A stretch of DNA of 53,304 nt from a virus. A model generated the notes under the pieces. That model searched no databases and was not told where the DNA came from. It saw only the letters and a list, made by a program, of their open reading frames with translations. The position numbers and the translations under genes were made by a program. The DNA lies in IMG/VR virus record IMGVR_UViG_3300018045_000005, positions 1 through 53,304 of that record. One strand, given 5' to 3'. Shown here piece after piece: positions 2,703-20,051 of this stretch. Each line of letters starts with the position of its first letter. Position 1 is the first letter of the stretch.

Positions 2703-4376
2703 ATGAACATCTCTTTACGAAACTATCAAATGGAAGTTTCTAATAAAATCGATCAATCATGGGATGACGGTAACGAAAATGTACTAGCTGTATTACCGAC
2801 GGGTGCTGGTAAAACCGTGATCATGGCATACAAAGTTAGTCAAAATAGAGGTGTGACCACTGTTATAGCCCATCGTGCAGAATTAGTTAACCAAATATCT
2901 ACCACTTTGGCTAAATTCGGATTACATCATCAGATTGTCGCATCTAAATCTACAATAAAGGATGCTGTTAAATCACACCTTGAAGAATGTAGGGCTTCTT
3001 TTTACGATCCAAATTCTAAAATCATCGTAGCCAGTGTTGATACGTTAAATAAACGTAAAGGAAAAATGGATCACCTTTTAAATCAATGTACGTTAACTTT
3101 AATAGATGAATCCCACCATGTACTACGTGATAATAAATGGGGTAAATCAGTATCACTGTTTCCGAACGCTAAATTATTAGGGGTTACGGCTACACCGATC
3201 CGAACAGACCGTAAAGGGTTAGGTAGTCATGCCCACGGTGTATTTGACGACATGGTTTTAGGTCCATCAATGAGATGGTTGATCAACAATGGGTATTTGA
3301 CAGATTACAAAATATTTTCACCACCTTCAGACTTAATATTGACCGAAGAAGATATTAGTAAAAATACAGGTGAGTTCAAATCAGATAATGTTAAAAACGC
3401 TGTTCAGAAATCACACCTTGTTGGTGACGTAGTTGAACAATATCTTAAAATCGCACCAATGAAACAAGGTATCACTTTCGCAGACTGTATCGACAATGCT
3501 ACTTTGATCGCTGAAAAATTCAAAAAAGCAGGTGTTAAAGCGGAAGTGATACACGGTGGCACCCCTGACCATATACGTTCAAAATTCATCAAACAGTTTA
3601 AAAATAAAGAACTTCAACAGTTGGTGAATGTTGATCTATTTGGTGAAGGGTTTGATGTACCTGGTATCGAAGTGGTGTCAATGGCTAGACCAACAATGTC
3701 ATTCGCTTTATTCTCACAGCAATTCGGTAGATGTTTGAGAATAATGGACGGTAAACAATTCGCTATCATCATCGACCATGTAGGTAACGTTATCAAGTTT
3801 GCTCGTACACACGGGTTACCTGACGCAGAAATCGAATGGACTCTGGACGCTGGTGAATTTTCATCTAAAACAAACGGTGTTAACGACGCTATACCAGTTA
3901 AAGCGTGTGTAGAATGTCATCAGACTTACGAAAAGATATACAAACAGTGTCCTTTTTGCGGTCACCACCAACCACCTGCCGAAAGAAGTGGTCCGGAATT
4001 CGTAGATGGTGACTTAACCGAATTAGACGCTGAAACTTTAGCAAATATGAGACGAGACATAAATAAAATCGACGAATCAACACAATCGATGTATCAACGT
4101 ATGAAAAACGCTGGTGCTTCAGAAATGGTCGCAAGATCAGCAATCAAAAGACATGGTGAACGAAGAGAAGAAATAGATAAGTTACGAGATTCAATGGCGT
4201 GGTGGTGTGGTTACCATAAAGCTGTTGGGGAAACAGAAGATATGATCTACAAGAGATTTTATTTCAAGTTCGGCATCGATATAAACACTGCTCAAACTCT
4301 AAGTAAAAAAGAAGCAATCGAATTACAAGGTAAGGTTAACAATGACACCAATCGAATTACAGTCATGGGTGTATAG
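2703..4376 (+). CDS. Superfamily 2 DEAD/DEAH-type DNA helicase with zinc finger
   Basis: I chose ATG 2703 (557 residues) because the fold begins at once (MNISLRNYQMEV) and AAAGGTG sits just upstream; longer in-frame starts exist at 2679 and upstream. Motifs in order: Walker A LPTGAGKT at 31-38, DESH box at 135-138, TATP at 162-165, and the helicase C motif QQFGRCLRI near 355. A four-cysteine zinc ribbon follows (C402, C405, C416, C419), then a C-terminal helical region. The protein belongs to the RecQ/UvsW-like phage helicases that unwind DNA with ATP during replication or recombination. Its 3' end overlaps the VRR-NUC gene by 35 bases, so the two are translationally coupled. Confidence 0.88.
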   Translation: MNISLRNYQMEVSNKIDQSWDDGNENVLAVLPTGAGKTVIMAYKVSQNRGVTTVIAHRAELVNQISTTLAKFGLHHQIVASKSTIKDAVKSHLEECRASFYDPNSKIIVASVDTLNKRKGKMDHLLNQCTLTLIDESHHVLRDNKWGKSVSLFPNAKLLGVTATPIRTDRKGLGSHAHGVFDDMVLGPSMRWLINNGYLTDYKIFSPPSDLILTEEDISKNTGEFKSDNVKNAVQKSHLVGDVVEQYLKIAPMKQGITFADCIDNATLIAEKFKKAGVKAEVIHGGTPDHIRSKFIKQFKNKELQQLVNVDLFGEGFDVPGIEVVSMARPTMSFALFSQQFGRCLRIMDGKQFAIIIDHVGNVIKFARTHGLPDAEIEWTLDAGEFSSKTNGVNDAIPVKACVECHQTYEKIYKQCPFCGHHQPPAERSGPEFVDGDLTELDAETLANMRRDINKIDESTQSMYQRMKNAGASEMVARSAIKRHGERREEIDKLRDSMAWWCGYHKAVGETEDMIYKRFYFKFGIDINTAQTLSKKEAIELQGKVNNDTNRITVMGV

Positions 4377-7713: not shown

Positions 7714-8366
7714 TATTTTAAACCTTTTATAGGTGCTATCACATCTTCTCTATTATCAAACTGGAACCTCACGCAAGGTTTACCATCCACTAATTCAATA
7801 ACTCCACTTTTCGATTGTTCGACAGGCATTAAGAAATGTAAGGCGTTATTAATCGACTTACCTTTTGAGCCGTAAAGTTTAAATTCTAATACATCTCGAA
7901 GACAACCTCTACGTCTTTTGTTATTAATATCTATACCGATTGATTCTGAAATTTCACGAAGGCTCATTAATCTAACATGCGGGTACTCTTCAAATTTATA
8001 TAAATTATCAAGCTTTTCACTAATATCTGTATGTACCGATTTCTTACCGAAACACTTTAAATATTTCAAACGCCCATAAATAGAATTTATGAGAAGGTCT
8101 TTACTCATATACGGAATTTCACCTACATCTATACCCCAAAAGTTACATGTTTCATTAACATCTAACCCACAATAATTCATCAAATCCATCTTATTTATTG
8201 AGTCGATATTAGGTGGTTTTTCGATGTGAAATCCGATCATTGAATCACGTAAAAAAAGGGTCAAATTATCGTTGTCTAAATCGTCCAATTTTAGACCCCA
8301 TTTTTTAGTAAAAATTTCGAGACTTACGCCTGTTTTTAACAAATTTATCTTTTTTAGAGGATTCAT
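7713..8366 (-). CDS. Unknown protein preceding the primase
   Basis: The product has 217 residues and no family I recognise. It is mixed alpha/beta with a basic patch near residues 150-156 (NKRRRGCLRD) that could contact nucleic acid. Repeated short patterns (NINLLKTGVSLEIFTKKWGLKL, MDLMNYCGLDVNETCNFWGIDV, SLREISESIGIDI) each look like helix-turn-helix half-units, so it may be a multi-HTH binding protein. Its stop shares a base with the primase start, so it is probably co-translated with it and could be an origin-binding or primase-loading partner (inferred). It is the first gene after the promoter at 8396-8424. Confidence 0.6.
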   Translation of the reverse strand: MNPLKKINLLKTGVSLEIFTKKWGLKLDDLDNDNLTLFLRDSMIGFHIEKPPNIDSINKMDLMNYCGLDVNETCNFWGIDVGEIPYMSKDLLINSIYGRLKYLKCFGKKSVHTDISEKLDNLYKFEEYPHVRLMSLREISESIGIDINNKRRRGCLRDVLEFKLYGSKGKSINNALHFLMPVEQSKSGVIELVDGKPCVRFQFDNREDVIAPIKGLK

Positions 8367-8395
8367 TTCGATTTCTCAACTTTTATTTTGGCGAA

Positions 8396-8424
8396 ATTAT
8401 AAAACTTATTGACTATATCGTCAA
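8396..8424 (-). promoter_or_regulatory. Sigma70-type promoter of the primase operon
   Basis: Read on the minus strand: TTGACG (8424-8419), a 17-bp spacer and a perfect TATAAT (8401-8396). The -35 forms a short palindrome TTGAC-TATATC-GTCAA (8409-8424), so a regulator could block it. Confidence 0.82.
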
Positions 8425-8516
8425 CGAAATTTGAAATTTTAAAAATTTAAAAATTAAGCTTAAAAATTTTAAAAATGAAATTTATAGGTAAATATACGTA
8501 AAAATCATCAAAATAC

Positions 8517-8721
8517 CGTCGATGCGTCGATAAAAACGCAAAATCCCATATATACCCTAATATATTAGTAATAGCGTTTTACCCACAATATCGCCTTTTA
8601 CCCTATTTTAGTATTACCCCTTATATTCTTATCTTATATATATATACATACACTTATAGTACATAACATAGGAAAACCACCGTGGATTCTGGCTTTGAAG
8701 ACCGTCGATAAAACCGTCGAT
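8517..8721. repeat. CGTCGAT iterons
   Basis: CGTCGAT occurs at 8517-8523, 8525-8531, 8703-8709 and 8715-8721, in two pairs spaced 8 and 12 bp apart. A fifth, inverted copy is at 8854-8860 (ATCGACG). The second pair lies inside a small AGACC/GGTCT stem. Confidence 0.6.
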
Positions 8722-8753
8722 GAAGGTCTATTATGTCGAACTACGTAATTTTT

Positions 8754-8807
8754 CCTTATTCAACCACTTAGTTGAATAGGGCTGTAGCCCGCTCTGGGAG
8801 CGGTTTT
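8754..8807 (+). other. Three consecutive hairpins, the last terminator-like
   Basis: Hairpin 1 pairs CCTTATTCAAC (8754-8764) with GTTGAATAGG (8771-8780) with one bulge. Hairpin 2 pairs GGGC (8779-8782) with GCCC (8787-8790). Hairpin 3 pairs CCGCTC (8789-8794) with GAGCGG (8798-8803) and is followed by TTTT. This could be a small structured RNA ending in a weak terminator, or single-strand origin structure. Confidence 0.45.
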
Positions 8808-9055
8808 GAGCGTTATTCCCTAGTAAAATTTGGAAATCTTTCTAACACAGCGGATCGACGACGCCCACTGACGCCCAGATTGCCAGTAAGTACCTTTTGA
8901 TGAAATATGAACCACAATGAACCATTCATAAACCCTCTGAAACATCGTGAAACATCGTGAGACTAGACTTCTAACCCTAACCTATACCGACATAGCCCCT
9001 AAACAACAAACGCCCCATATTGATCATTTCAGGACGTTTCACGATAACCAACCTT

Positions 9056-9125
9056 TAGACGTAAAAAAACCGCTAAAAAGCGGCTTAAAATAGACGTAAA
9101 AAAACCGCTAAAAAGCGGCTTAAAA
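9056..9125 (-). terminator. Tandemly duplicated terminator of the leftward early operon
   Basis: Two perfect 35-bp copies (9056-9090 and 9091-9125). On the minus strand each forms AGCCGC-TTTTTA-GCGGTT followed by a T run. They lie about 110 bases after the last gene of the operon (stop at 9236). Confidence 0.85.
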
Positions 9126-9235
9126 ATTACGTTGGTATAAGGCTAAAAATGATGAAGAGGAAAACCCCATATTCTACACTGTCAAACAGAAAAACCAGTG
9201 GGGCGAATCCAAACATTAAACACGCCTTAATTAAT

Positions 9236-10529: not shown

Positions 10530-11342
10530 TTAATACACTAAACCTAAAGCTTCAATATCAGTCACAAACTCTTCAATTAAAGCGGGTAAACGTTCTAATA
10601 ATAAATCTTTGTTTTGTAATTGTTCTAACGTTGCATCATGCCAAATTGCTGAACTTCTAGCCGCTTGTAAATTTGGCTCAACTGCTTTATTGAACGTGCT
10701 AGGAATTTGGATAAATTCAAAACCTAAAATTAACGCCTCTTTAAATTCTAATGCCTCTTTGAAGGTGTCAAAAGGACAATAAGCCCAACCATTAACAAAA
10801 CCCTGATATGTGAATTTAGAAGCATATTGATAACCACCTTTTTCATTATCTTTATGTTCAATTTCCTCAATAACTAGATCAATAATATCCTGTTTTCCTA
10901 GACCTTTGATAAAGTCAAAAAACCCGCGTGTAGATTGCCCAAATGTAATAGGGAAATCTTTAAATTTTAAACGCTCAATATAGCTTGTAGGTGCGTTTAA
11001 AGGTTTGGTCATATCTTCACGGTCTTTAGCGTGATACATAGTATTTGCAACATAATGTAGAGGTTCATAACTGCTCATTAAGTGCCATTTAATAAGGTGC
11101 TTAAGTTCTGGGAAATGTTTTTTAATCTCTTCGTGAATACAACCACCTGTTTGAAAATAACGGTCATTTTTATTCCCTGTTTGATTGCTGTAAATATCGC
11201 CAGTAATAGAGAATGAATTATGACCGTTGCCGCATTGATCATCATAACGAACCGTTACATAAATCGTGCTTTTCACCCCGTAATATGTGATATGTTTAGA
11301 AAAATTTAATTTCTGGCTTTTGGTTAATATTGAGTTTTTCAT
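10530..11342 (-). CDS. Conserved phage/plasmid protein of unknown function
   Basis: The product has 270 residues. Residues 45-105 contain SITGDIYSNQ, FQTGGCIHEEIKKHFPEL and LIKWHLMSSYEPLHYVANTMYHA. This block recurs in uncharacterised proteins of phages and mobile elements as I recall (GGCIHDEI, HFPEL and HY-ANT-HA patterns). A basic and acidic C-terminal half follows. The His, Cys and Asp residues could bind a metal, but no catalytic assignment is safe. The gene has its own promoter at 11382-11411, which marks it as separately expressed within the operon. Confidence 0.62.
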   Translation of the reverse strand: MKNSILTKSQKLNFSKHITYYGVKSTIYVTVRYDDQCGNGHNSFSITGDIYSNQTGNKNDRYFQTGGCIHEEIKKHFPELKHLIKWHLMSSYEPLHYVANTMYHAKDREDMTKPLNAPTSYIERLKFKDFPITFGQSTRGFFDFIKGLGKQDIIDLVIEEIEHKDNEKGGYQYASKFTYQGFVNGWAYCPFDTFKEALEFKEALILGFEFIQIPSTFNKAVEPNLQAARSSAIWHDATLEQLQNKDLLLERLPALIEEFVTDIEALGLVY

Positions 11343-11413: not shown

Positions 11414-11815
11414 TTAATTTACAATTAAATCTATTAATTCTTTAATCTCTTGTTTTAATAACTCCATTGTATAATCCTGATATTTATTGCAATTTATAAA
11501 TCCATATAAACTCCACTCATTATCATCAGCTTTCATAATGTTCAAATAGTCATCATTTAAATAAGGTCTATCATTAAAAACAAAATCTAAAACTTTAGAT
11601 AAAATACGTTGCTGATTATTACCAGCTAACCAATTAAGGCCGCGTTGATCAAATACGTTAAAAGATAATTCGTTAATATTATCGTTCGGTAATAACTCAT
11701 TTAATGCCGCGTAAACGTTTGATAAAACTTGATAAGGGTCATCTAACTCAACATCGTCATTGATAACAACTTGTAACGAACGCTTACTTTCTGCAAATTT
11801 AATTTGAACTTTCAT
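11414..11815 (-). CDS. Unknown acidic early protein
   Basis: The product has 133 residues, is rich in Asn, Asp and Leu, and has no recognised family. Predicted as alternating beta strands and helices (MKVQIKFAESKRSLQVVIND, then helix VLSNVYAALNELLP), ending in a helix (ELLKQEIKELIDLIV). It has good context in the operon: it starts 12 bases after the preceding gene, with AAGGGGTT upstream as the ribosome site. Confidence 0.58.
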   Translation of the reverse strand: MKVQIKFAESKRSLQVVINDDVELDDPYQVLSNVYAALNELLPNDNINELSFNVFDQRGLNWLAGNNQQRILSKVLDFVFNDRPYLNDDYLNIMKADDNEWSLYGFINCNKYQDYTMELLKQEIKELIDLIVN

Positions 11816-12294: not shown

Positions 12295-12329
12295 TTTATT
12301 TAATCCATGTTTTGTTTGAATTCGCGTTC

Positions 12330-12358
12330 ATTATACGAATTATTTAAAAGCTTGTAAA
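12330..12358 (-). promoter_or_regulatory. Main leftward early promoter
   Basis: Read on the minus strand: TTTACA (12358-12353), a 17-bp spacer and perfect TATAAT (12335-12330). It starts about 40 bases upstream of the first leftward gene. ATTCG and CGAAT flank the -10 as an inverted repeat. Confidence 0.82.
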
Positions 12359-12485
12359 GTTTTATTTACAGTTATTTTCATTTTTCGTTATTCCAATTCC
12401 ACCATAAAACCCACTCAACCTGTTGATCTTAAAACAAAATATCGTTATCTATCCTTCAAATCTGAATGGGTAATTTTGCTTATTT

Positions 12486-12613
12486 GTACGTAATTTCACC
12501 TATCTGTACAGAATTTCACTCACACGTACTACCTTGTATACCTCGCCTTATCACACGTACTACCTTGTATACCTCGCCTTATCACACGGACTACCTTGTA
12601 TACCTCGCCTTAT
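12486..12613. repeat. Phased operator or iteron array between divergent promoters
   Basis: Three 31-bp tandem repeats (12521-12551, 12552-12582, 12583-12613) differ by a single base (GTAC to GGAC in the third). Two shorter related units lie to the left (TTTGTACGTAATTTCAC and TCTGTACAGAATTTCAC). The GTAC cores start at 12486, 12506, 12526, 12557 and 12588 (GGAC), spaced 20, 20, 31 and 31 bp, that is two or three helical turns. The array sits just upstream of the consensus promoter at 12635. Confidence 0.85.
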
Positions 12614-12634
12614 TCAAAATTTTGTAAATAAAAG

Positions 12635-12663
12635 TTGACAGTTAAAAATGAGAACAATATAAT
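12635..12663 (+). promoter_or_regulatory. Full-consensus rightward early promoter
   Basis: TTGACA (12635-12640), exactly 17 bp, TATAAT (12658-12663). A copy of TTGACGAC (12663-12670) overlaps the expected start point. Confidence 0.93.
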
Positions 12664-12693
12664 TGACGACAACAGCAATAAGAGGACGTAGAA

Positions 12694-18894: not shown

Positions 18895-20000
18895 GTCACA
18901 CAACATTCAATCAAAATAAAGTTAACCACCTAACCCAACCGATGTTCTTTGGTGAGTCAGTGGGGGTGGCACGTTACGATGAATTACGCTTCCCGTGGGT
19001 TGATAAGTTGACAGAAAAACAACTTGGGTTCTTTTGGAGACCGGAGGAAATTGATCTATCAAGTGACCGTGCAGAGTTTGAAGCATTACCTGAAAATGAG
19101 AAGCATATATTCACATCGAACCTAAAGTATCAAATCCTACTTGATTCAGTACAGGGTCGTTCACCAAATATGGCCTTCTTACCTATCGTGAGTCTACCCG
19201 AAGTTGAGACATGGGTTGAAACATGGTCGTTTAGTGAGACAATCCACAGTCGTTCATACACTCATATTATCCGTAATATATTCAATCACCCTGGTGACGT
19301 ATTTGATCACATTATTGATGTACCGGAAATTGTTGAACGTGCGACAAGCGTAACTGAAGATTATGATGAGTTGATCAGACTGTGTTCAATTAAGACCGGT
19401 GATGATCAACCTTGGACTGATGAACTTCAAATGCAAGCTGAAGATGCACTGTTTAAAACAATGGTCTCAGTCAACGTATTGGAAGCCGTTCGTTTTTACG
19501 TGTCATTCGCTTGTTCATACGCATTTGCTGAACGTAAAGAGATGGAAGGTAACGCTAAAGTTATCAAGATGATCAACCGTGATGAGACACTTCATTTAGC
19601 TTTCACACAGCAAGTATTACAGCACTGGATCAACGGTAAAGATAGTGAAGCAATGCAACAGGCCGCTATTCGTAACTTTGATTTTATCCATAAATGTTTC
19701 AAAGATGCGGCTCAACAGGAAAAAGAGTGGGCTGATTACCTGTTCCAAGATGGTTCAATGATTGGACTTAACGCGGCAATTTTACATCAATACATTGAGT
19801 ATCTAACTAATGTCCGAGTTAAGGCACTGGGTTTAGCACCAATTTATGACGATGTGGTTAACCCTATCCCTTGGGTCAACGCTTGGACTAATAGTGATAA
19901 TGTACAAGTGGCTCCACAAGAATCAGAAATCACGAACTACCTTACTGGTGCCGTTGATTCATCAGTTAAAGATGATGATTTTAAAGATTTTAACTTGTAA
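18891..20000 (+). CDS. nrdB: Class I ribonucleotide reductase small (beta) subunit
   Basis: The product has 369 residues. It carries the di-iron and tyrosyl radical that activates the large subunit to convert ribonucleoside diphosphates to deoxy forms. Ligand residues align with E. coli NrdB: D85, E116 and H119, with the radical Tyr at Y123 (ETIHSRSYTHI), and a second set in FAERKEMEGNAKVIKMINRDETLHL. The last residues, DDDFKDFNL, keep the acidic tail with terminal Leu that docks NrdA. No nrdA or glutaredoxin gene is present in the genome, so it must use the host large subunit or act as a replacement beta chain (inference). Confidence 0.95.
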   Translation: MSHTTFNQNKVNHLTQPMFFGESVGVARYDELRFPWVDKLTEKQLGFFWRPEEIDLSSDRAEFEALPENEKHIFTSNLKYQILLDSVQGRSPNMAFLPIVSLPEVETWVETWSFSETIHSRSYTHIIRNIFNHPGDVFDHIIDVPEIVERATSVTEDYDELIRLCSIKTGDDQPWTDELQMQAEDALFKTMVSVNVLEAVRFYVSFACSYAFAERKEMEGNAKVIKMINRDETLHLAFTQQVLQHWINGKDSEAMQQAAIRNFDFIHKCFKDAAQQEKEWADYLFQDGSMIGLNAAILHQYIEYLTNVRVKALGLAPIYDDVVNPIPWVNAWTNSDNVQVAPQESEITNYLTGAVDSSVKDDDFKDFNL

Positions 20001-20007
20001 ATAATAG

Positions 20008-20036
20008 TTGACACTTTGACGACATGAAACTACAAT
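20008..20036 (+). promoter_or_regulatory. Second rightward promoter, downstream of nrdB
   Basis: TTGACA (20008-20013), a 17-bp spacer and TACAAT (20031-20036), 8 bases after the nrdB stop. A perfect inverted repeat overlaps it. Confidence 0.85.
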
Positions 20037-20051
20037 TAACCATGTCGTCAA
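20016..20051. promoter_or_regulatory. Operator-like inverted repeat
   Basis: TTGACGACATG (20016-20026) and CATGTCGTCAA (20041-20051) form a perfect 11-bp inverted repeat with a 14-bp centre, covering the spacer, -10 and start point of the promoter. A protein dimer of dimers, or an mRNA hairpin in the leader, are both possible. Confidence 0.75.

Follow-up and report, generated by a model that had tools for sequence, protein, structure and literature searches.

A direct-repeat array at the early/metabolic divergence of a distant Casjensviridae relative corresponds in position to repeat arrays of the family

The stretch of DNA analyzed here (the window, a virus record of 53,304 bp) contains a 399-bp noncoding gap at 12295-12693, which separates the start of a leftward gene (12294) from the start of a rightward gene (12694). 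The leftward operon is composed of small genes, and the rightward operon is one of nucleotide metabolism, encoding between 17325 and 21299 ThyX, a Mom-like DNA modification protein, the small subunit of ribonucleotide reductase, a DksA-like zinc finger, and a MazG-like protein. Judged by its sequence, the phage is a distant relative of the Casjensviridae (Chi-like phages). Its TerL is about 50% identical to those of the family (49% to that of Chi), DUF2800, DNA polymerase, and a 270-aa early protein are common to both, and the portal also fits. The gene order is the mirror image of that in Chi: TerL, polymerase, DUF2800, primase, small early genes, the gap, the metabolic operon, and late genes. 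Both ends of the contig (1-55, 53157-53304) lie inside a coding tandem repeat, CTGCTGGTGGTACTGCAC. The identical 55-bp ends represent this repeat, and the circularity of the contig is therefore not proven.

The features of the gap and its flanks are as follows.

10530-11342, minus strand: leftward-operon gene for the 270-aa protein, which has 42-44% identity to gp59 of Providencia phage Stilesk
12106-12294, minus strand: first gene of the leftward operon, 62 aa, no family
12295-12469: A+T-rich stretch from the array to the leftward gene, 73% AT, a possible unwinding region
12358-12330, minus strand: leftward promoter, TTTACA-17-TATAAT, 11/12 match; with its upstream box the element covers 12330-12370
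12470-12489, plus strand: 20-bp direct repeat unit 1, GTAATTTTGCTTATTTGTAC
12490-12509, plus strand: 20-bp direct repeat unit 2, GTAATTTCACCTATCTGTAC
12510-12519, plus strand: half unit AGAATTTCAC, bridging the 20-bp and 31-bp series
12520-12550, plus strand: 31-bp direct repeat unit 1, TCACACGTACTACCTTGTATACCTCGCCTTA (reference copy)
12551-12581, plus strand: 31-bp direct repeat unit 2, 100% identical to unit 1
12582-12612, plus strand: 31-bp direct repeat unit 3, 97% identical; a single T to G change turns GTAC into GGAC
12623-12633, plus strand: box TGTAAATAAAA, just upstream of the rightward -35
12635-12663, plus strand: rightward promoter, TTGACA-17-TATAAT, 12/12 match
12663-12670, plus strand: operator-like TTGACGAC, directly after the rightward -10 and found also at other promoters of the genome
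12694-13062, plus strand: first gene of the rightward operon, 122 aa, no family

The repeat array in the gap is real. It opens with two full 20-bp units and a half unit (12470-12519), which run directly into three 31-bp units. An earlier note on this DNA had described GTAC or GGAC cores at intervals of 20, 20, 31, and 31 bp and three 31-bp repeats. Our recount agrees on both points, with GTAC cores at 12486-12489, 12506-12509, 12526-12529, and 12557-12560, a GGAC core at 12588-12591, and 31-bp copies that are contiguous across 12520-12612 (identities 100%, 100%, and 97%). A second core, GTATAC, follows GTAC at a distance of 11 bp in every 31-bp unit. If GTATAC is counted in, then the centers of the GT..AC elements step by 20, 20, 11, 20, 11, 20, and 11 bp. 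The block that is invariant in all three 31-bp copies is 23 bp long (ACTACCTTGTATACCTCGCCTTA), and copy 3 is mutated in GTAC.

The gap (12295-12693) has a self-similarity score of 94, compared with a mean of 1.6 and a maximum of 10 among 200 dinucleotide shuffles, none of which (0/200) reaches the repeat level of the array. No other noncoding 400-bp stretch in the window scores as high, and the sole higher score belongs to a coding repeat near the contig end. A coding repeat is excluded by the period, as 31 is not divisible by 3, and a hairpin repeat by the lack of any strand-fold signal (z 0.26, no unusual folding). A search of Rfam returned nothing. The unit has no copy elsewhere in the window; it is present at one locus and is not a regulon operator.

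Searches of larger collections give a similar picture. The invariant 23-mer is absent from IMG/VR, and exact and spaced-pattern searches there for the array unit gave only unrelated coding or 11-bp-step matches. The unit is also absent from the 80 viral contigs that carry the 270-aa protein, and the nearest relative by this protein (L029) has a gap without repeats. No relatives were found for the first rightward protein or, in the phage collection, for most early proteins of the window. The searches turned up no phage near enough to this one to reveal whether the unit is conserved. Two other contigs were recorded as separate observations. In L126, TTTGTATACCA occurs at 11-bp steps (2846-3090) upstream of a small ribbon-helix-helix gene and is a candidate autoregulatory operator. 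L119, a 90-kb viral contig, has four tandem copies of GTACTACCCAACTAGT together with TTGTATACCA repeats in a divergent gap (about 7780-8614). The L119 repeats contain both sub-motifs of the window unit, possibly by coincidence.

The earlier note proposed that the cores lie near whole numbers of helical turns, such that a protein could line up on one face of the DNA. The spacings between neighbors are indeed near whole turns, but the cores drift by 0.2-0.3 turn over 102 bp. Moreover, the array has only two independent spacings, because tandem duplication gives equal 31-bp spacing automatically, and a spacing drawn at random has about a 20% chance of lying no more than 1 bp from a whole number of turns. 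Two independent spacings and a drift do not make phasing a strong argument for alignment on one face. This proposal is weakened further by the second core in each unit and by the arrays of Casjensviridae relatives, which are not phased and have irregular spacings (31, 45, 51, 59, 71, 91, and 168 bp).

The position of the array between the leftward promoter (12330) and the full-consensus rightward promoter (12635) is as the earlier note described it. The rightward promoter is the sole perfect sigma-70 match in the window. The array (12470-12612) ends 23 bp upstream of its -35 and overlaps neither promoter. The TGTAAATAAAA box is common to the two promoters and lies directly upstream of each -35. 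With 0-1 mismatch, it precedes the -35 of four promoters, at 11423(-), 12370(-), 12623(+), and 19996(+), and is probably an early-promoter upstream element or the site of a common regulator. Operator-like TTGACG/CGTCAA sequences are found at promoters near 2619/2656, 4852, 8406/8419, and 12663, and an inverted repeat of this type, TTGACGACATG...CATGTCGTCAA (20016-20051), surrounds the promoter at 19996. These sequences are likely the real regulon operator of the phage. It is they, and not the array unit, that are distributed over several promoters. Classical repressor operators overlap the promoters they control and recur as symmetric sites at other promoters; the array overlaps no promoter, and its unit is confined to the gap. 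A simple repression loop, one of the options raised in the earlier note, becomes less likely, given that the adjacent promoter is already full consensus, no promoter is overlapped, and there is no distant second copy of the motif.

The 270-aa protein serves as a synteny anchor, since the gene for gp59 of Stilesk adjoins a repeat-bearing gap. In this matching divergent gap, the repeats of Stilesk lie between divergent promoters. The motif CTTACTT[GC]AAAAA(N5-7)CCGG[CT]TG, or a close variant of it, is present in the gap of 10 genomes (Stilesk, JC01, SP-030, Enc34, Smarc1, Soft, JS26, XAP3, Redjac, and Chi), and a 29-bp tandem array lies in the corresponding gap of Burkholderia phage AH2. When a motif model built without Chi was used to scan the complete genome of this held-out phage, the five best sites, with scores of 32-35, were all in the gap, and the next best scored 11. 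The Chi gap iterons are in L128+L129 (53504-54263), and other iteron-bearing records are L013, L016, L017, L023, L024, L026, and L114-L116. A query of two iteron units matched 144 phage records. In a shuffle test, 7/10 gaps, including that of the window, beat every shuffle; the repeat scores of the Nazgul, Saba, and 13AC503A gaps were not above all shuffles. In AchV4 and SS2019XI, the gap is short or missing at the corresponding place.

Family iterons number 3-6 copies per genome, in a single orientation and at irregular spacing (31-168 bp), within a gap that measures 0.4-0.8 kb in most Casjensviridae. Their distance to the -35 varies among relatives. In every array-bearing relative examined, the array is on the side of the metabolic operon, upstream of its promoter. 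The gap also coincides with a transcriptional boundary in JS26. RNA-seq of this phage assigned gp01-13 to early genes and gp15-45 to middle genes, and gp14 had no reads (PMC8754663). By gene coordinates, gp14 falls within the iteron gap and the early and middle operons diverge from it, and thus the gap is a control hub. A packaging site was considered and rejected: In Nazgul, Soft, and Enc34, several kb separate the annotated cos ends from the gap.

The window array resembles these family iterons in its place, on the metabolic-operon side of the early/metabolic divergent gap and close to the rightward -35, and in its makeup of several direct repeats of about 25-31 bp that share one orientation, abut a promoter, and are confined to the gap. 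The number of copies agrees as well. It differs from the family iterons in motif, because CTTACTT[GC]AAAAA...CCGG[CT]TG is absent, and in arrangement, because its copies are contiguous whereas those of the family are mostly dispersed. Homology of the window unit to the Chi-type iteron was not supported by a PWM, a one-gap PWM, nhmmer, or a lineage-weighted two-block model. Since the unit has no match to the motif, the relationship is claimed by position and layout and not by sequence: The window array is the positional and architectural counterpart of the family iterons, and its status as a homolog is not demonstrated by sequence. The nearest-neighbor iteron spacing in Smarc1 and Soft is 31 bp, equal to the period in the window, which may be a coincidence. 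The contiguous tandem arrays beside an 11/12 promoter in AH2 (29 bp, corresponding gap) and L051 (26 bp, divergent gap) resemble the window in arrangement, but their units, in contrast to that of the window, are G+C-rich and resemble the Chi iteron by eye.

On the evidence of these comparisons, what is new is that the gap at the matching place in the family carries direct-repeat arrays of its own, to which the array in the window corresponds by position. We found no published description of the Casjensviridae gap repeats in the open papers searched, and the iteron is apparently undescribed so far. The earlier note knew of no described phage operator of this layout. This still applies to the sequence in the literature searched, but the layout itself recurs across the Casjensviridae.

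We consider it quite likely that the array is a functional protein-binding array, one that probably binds a phage protein that starts DNA replication or activates the set of genes expressed next. What stands of the earlier proposal is a cis-acting array between divergent promoters, which is supported by its restriction to the gap, by its noncoding and unstructured nature, and by the arrays of the family; its argument from helical phase is weak. We lean, tentatively, toward an iteron-type replication-origin element in preference to a middle-operon switch. Several copies of one phage-encoded protein probably occupy adjacent 31-bp and 20-bp units. In an origin, the resulting nucleoprotein complex would melt the neighboring A+T-rich DNA and load the phage primase-helicase, with help from transcription that starts at the abutting consensus promoter. 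Binding by a phage protein, the identity of that protein, and replication initiation as the outcome are the parts of this model that we infer.

Multiple direct repeats of about 20-30 bp are a trait of iteron origins that the window array displays. In relatives, the copies all point the same way, are unevenly spaced, and lie at differing distances from the -35, a pattern better suited to iterons than to fixed activator sites. The rightward promoter of the window, having a full consensus, should need no activator. The large size of the gap also suggests an origin. The 73% AT content of 12295-12469 is only modestly above the average of this A+T-rich genome. No initiator family was recognized among the genes of the window, the 217-aa gene next to the primase matches no family, and a search of the gap for consensus sites of DnaA and IHF found none. 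Synonymous-site skew gives no consistent signal and does not indicate an origin at the gap. Also counting against an origin are the gaps of Nazgul and Saba, which have no repeats, and the fact that a recent tandem duplication can look alike. A rival candidate for an origin is the 869-bp noncoding A+T-rich region at 8367-9235, which adjoins the primase operon and contains repeated CGTCGAT, a run of ATATATATAT, and a duplicated terminator-like hairpin (9056-9125).

Known systems offer partial parallels. The SPP1 origins consist of direct repeats beside an A+T-rich element and are bound by gp38 (PMC6316719). As in the window, the direct repeats of oriL and oriR in the siphovirus SPP1 adjoin A+T-rich DNA in the early region, and a single genome has two candidate repeat regions (PMC6316719). 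SPP1 possesses a known binding protein, gp38, and a helicase loader, whereas neither was identified in the window. Since SPP1 has two repeat-type origins, a siphovirus can have two (PMC6316719), which may be compared with the gap and 8367-9235 of the window. Short direct repeats near promoters, unexplained or regulatory, are also known as the 21-bp intergenic repeats of TLS/T1-like phages and the stoperators of L5 (PMC11447400), but these are scattered over many intergenic sites and the window array occupies a single locus. The O-protein iterons of lambda resemble the window array in being tandem direct repeats, few in number and about 20-30 bp long. The lambda origin iterons are near-palindromic. 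They lie inside a replication gene (PMC11447400), whereas the window array is noncoding and no initiator is recognized.

The main competing explanation is that an early phage protein binds the repeats, which act as an upstream enhancer or silencer to time the rightward middle-type operon, perhaps also tuning the divergent early promoter. This is possible, if somewhat doubtful. The arrays of relatives are constantly placed beside the metabolic operon and upstream of its promoter, the two promoters have the TGTAAATAAAA box in common, and three HTH-like proteins are encoded by the window (the predicted structure of one, of 136 aa, had a pLDDT of 46 and was too poor for use). In JS26, the early and middle operons leave the gap, and hence a switch is needed somewhere (PMC8754663). 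Set against this are the 23 bp that separate the array from a full-consensus -35 with no promoter overlapped, the differences in spacing and promoter distance between relatives, and the occurrence of the array unit at no other promoter, unlike TTGACG/CGTCAA.

An array without any specific role, in which slippage multiplied a 31-bp piece of nonfunctional spacer, is unlikely. A recent duplication would predict what is seen in 31-bp copies 1 and 2, which are identical and contiguous, and it accords with the lack of any relative of the unit in IMG/VR and with the repeat-free gap of L029. However, a diverged series of 20-bp units, likewise ending in GTAC, continues the 31-bp series, and repeats of differing sequence recur at this locus across the family, where neutral slippage would not place them. 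It is quite improbable that the array is the site of another DNA-organizing protein, for example, a partition-like (ParB-type) or anti-defense protein. AH2, Nazgul, and SS2019XI do have ParB-like genes in the operon adjoining the gap, and TTGTATACC forms 11-bp-step repeats upstream of the ribbon-helix-helix gene in L126. Yet the window yielded no ribbon-helix-helix protein, the proteins scanned included no ParB match, and the two features part company among relatives: Nazgul and SS2019XI have ParB but no gap array, whereas Chi has the array but no annotated ParB.

For Chi-like (flagellum-using) phages, we found no published replication origin or middle-gene switch. The family comparison directs the search to one short locus, found in >100 sequenced records, and the window indicates that a different repeat sequence can be accommodated there. 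Laboratory strains support the growth of Chi and JS26, and the question is therefore directly testable. A broader and more speculative idea, to which we give limited credence, is that Casjensviridae and their distant relatives keep an iteron locus at the early/middle divergence, and that lineages (Chi, AH2, and window types) exchange the repeat, presumably with its binder, as a module while position, orientation, and the abutting promoter stay constant. If this is true, then the module would be an interchangeable origin or switch cassette, and it could set the compatibility of coinfecting phages.
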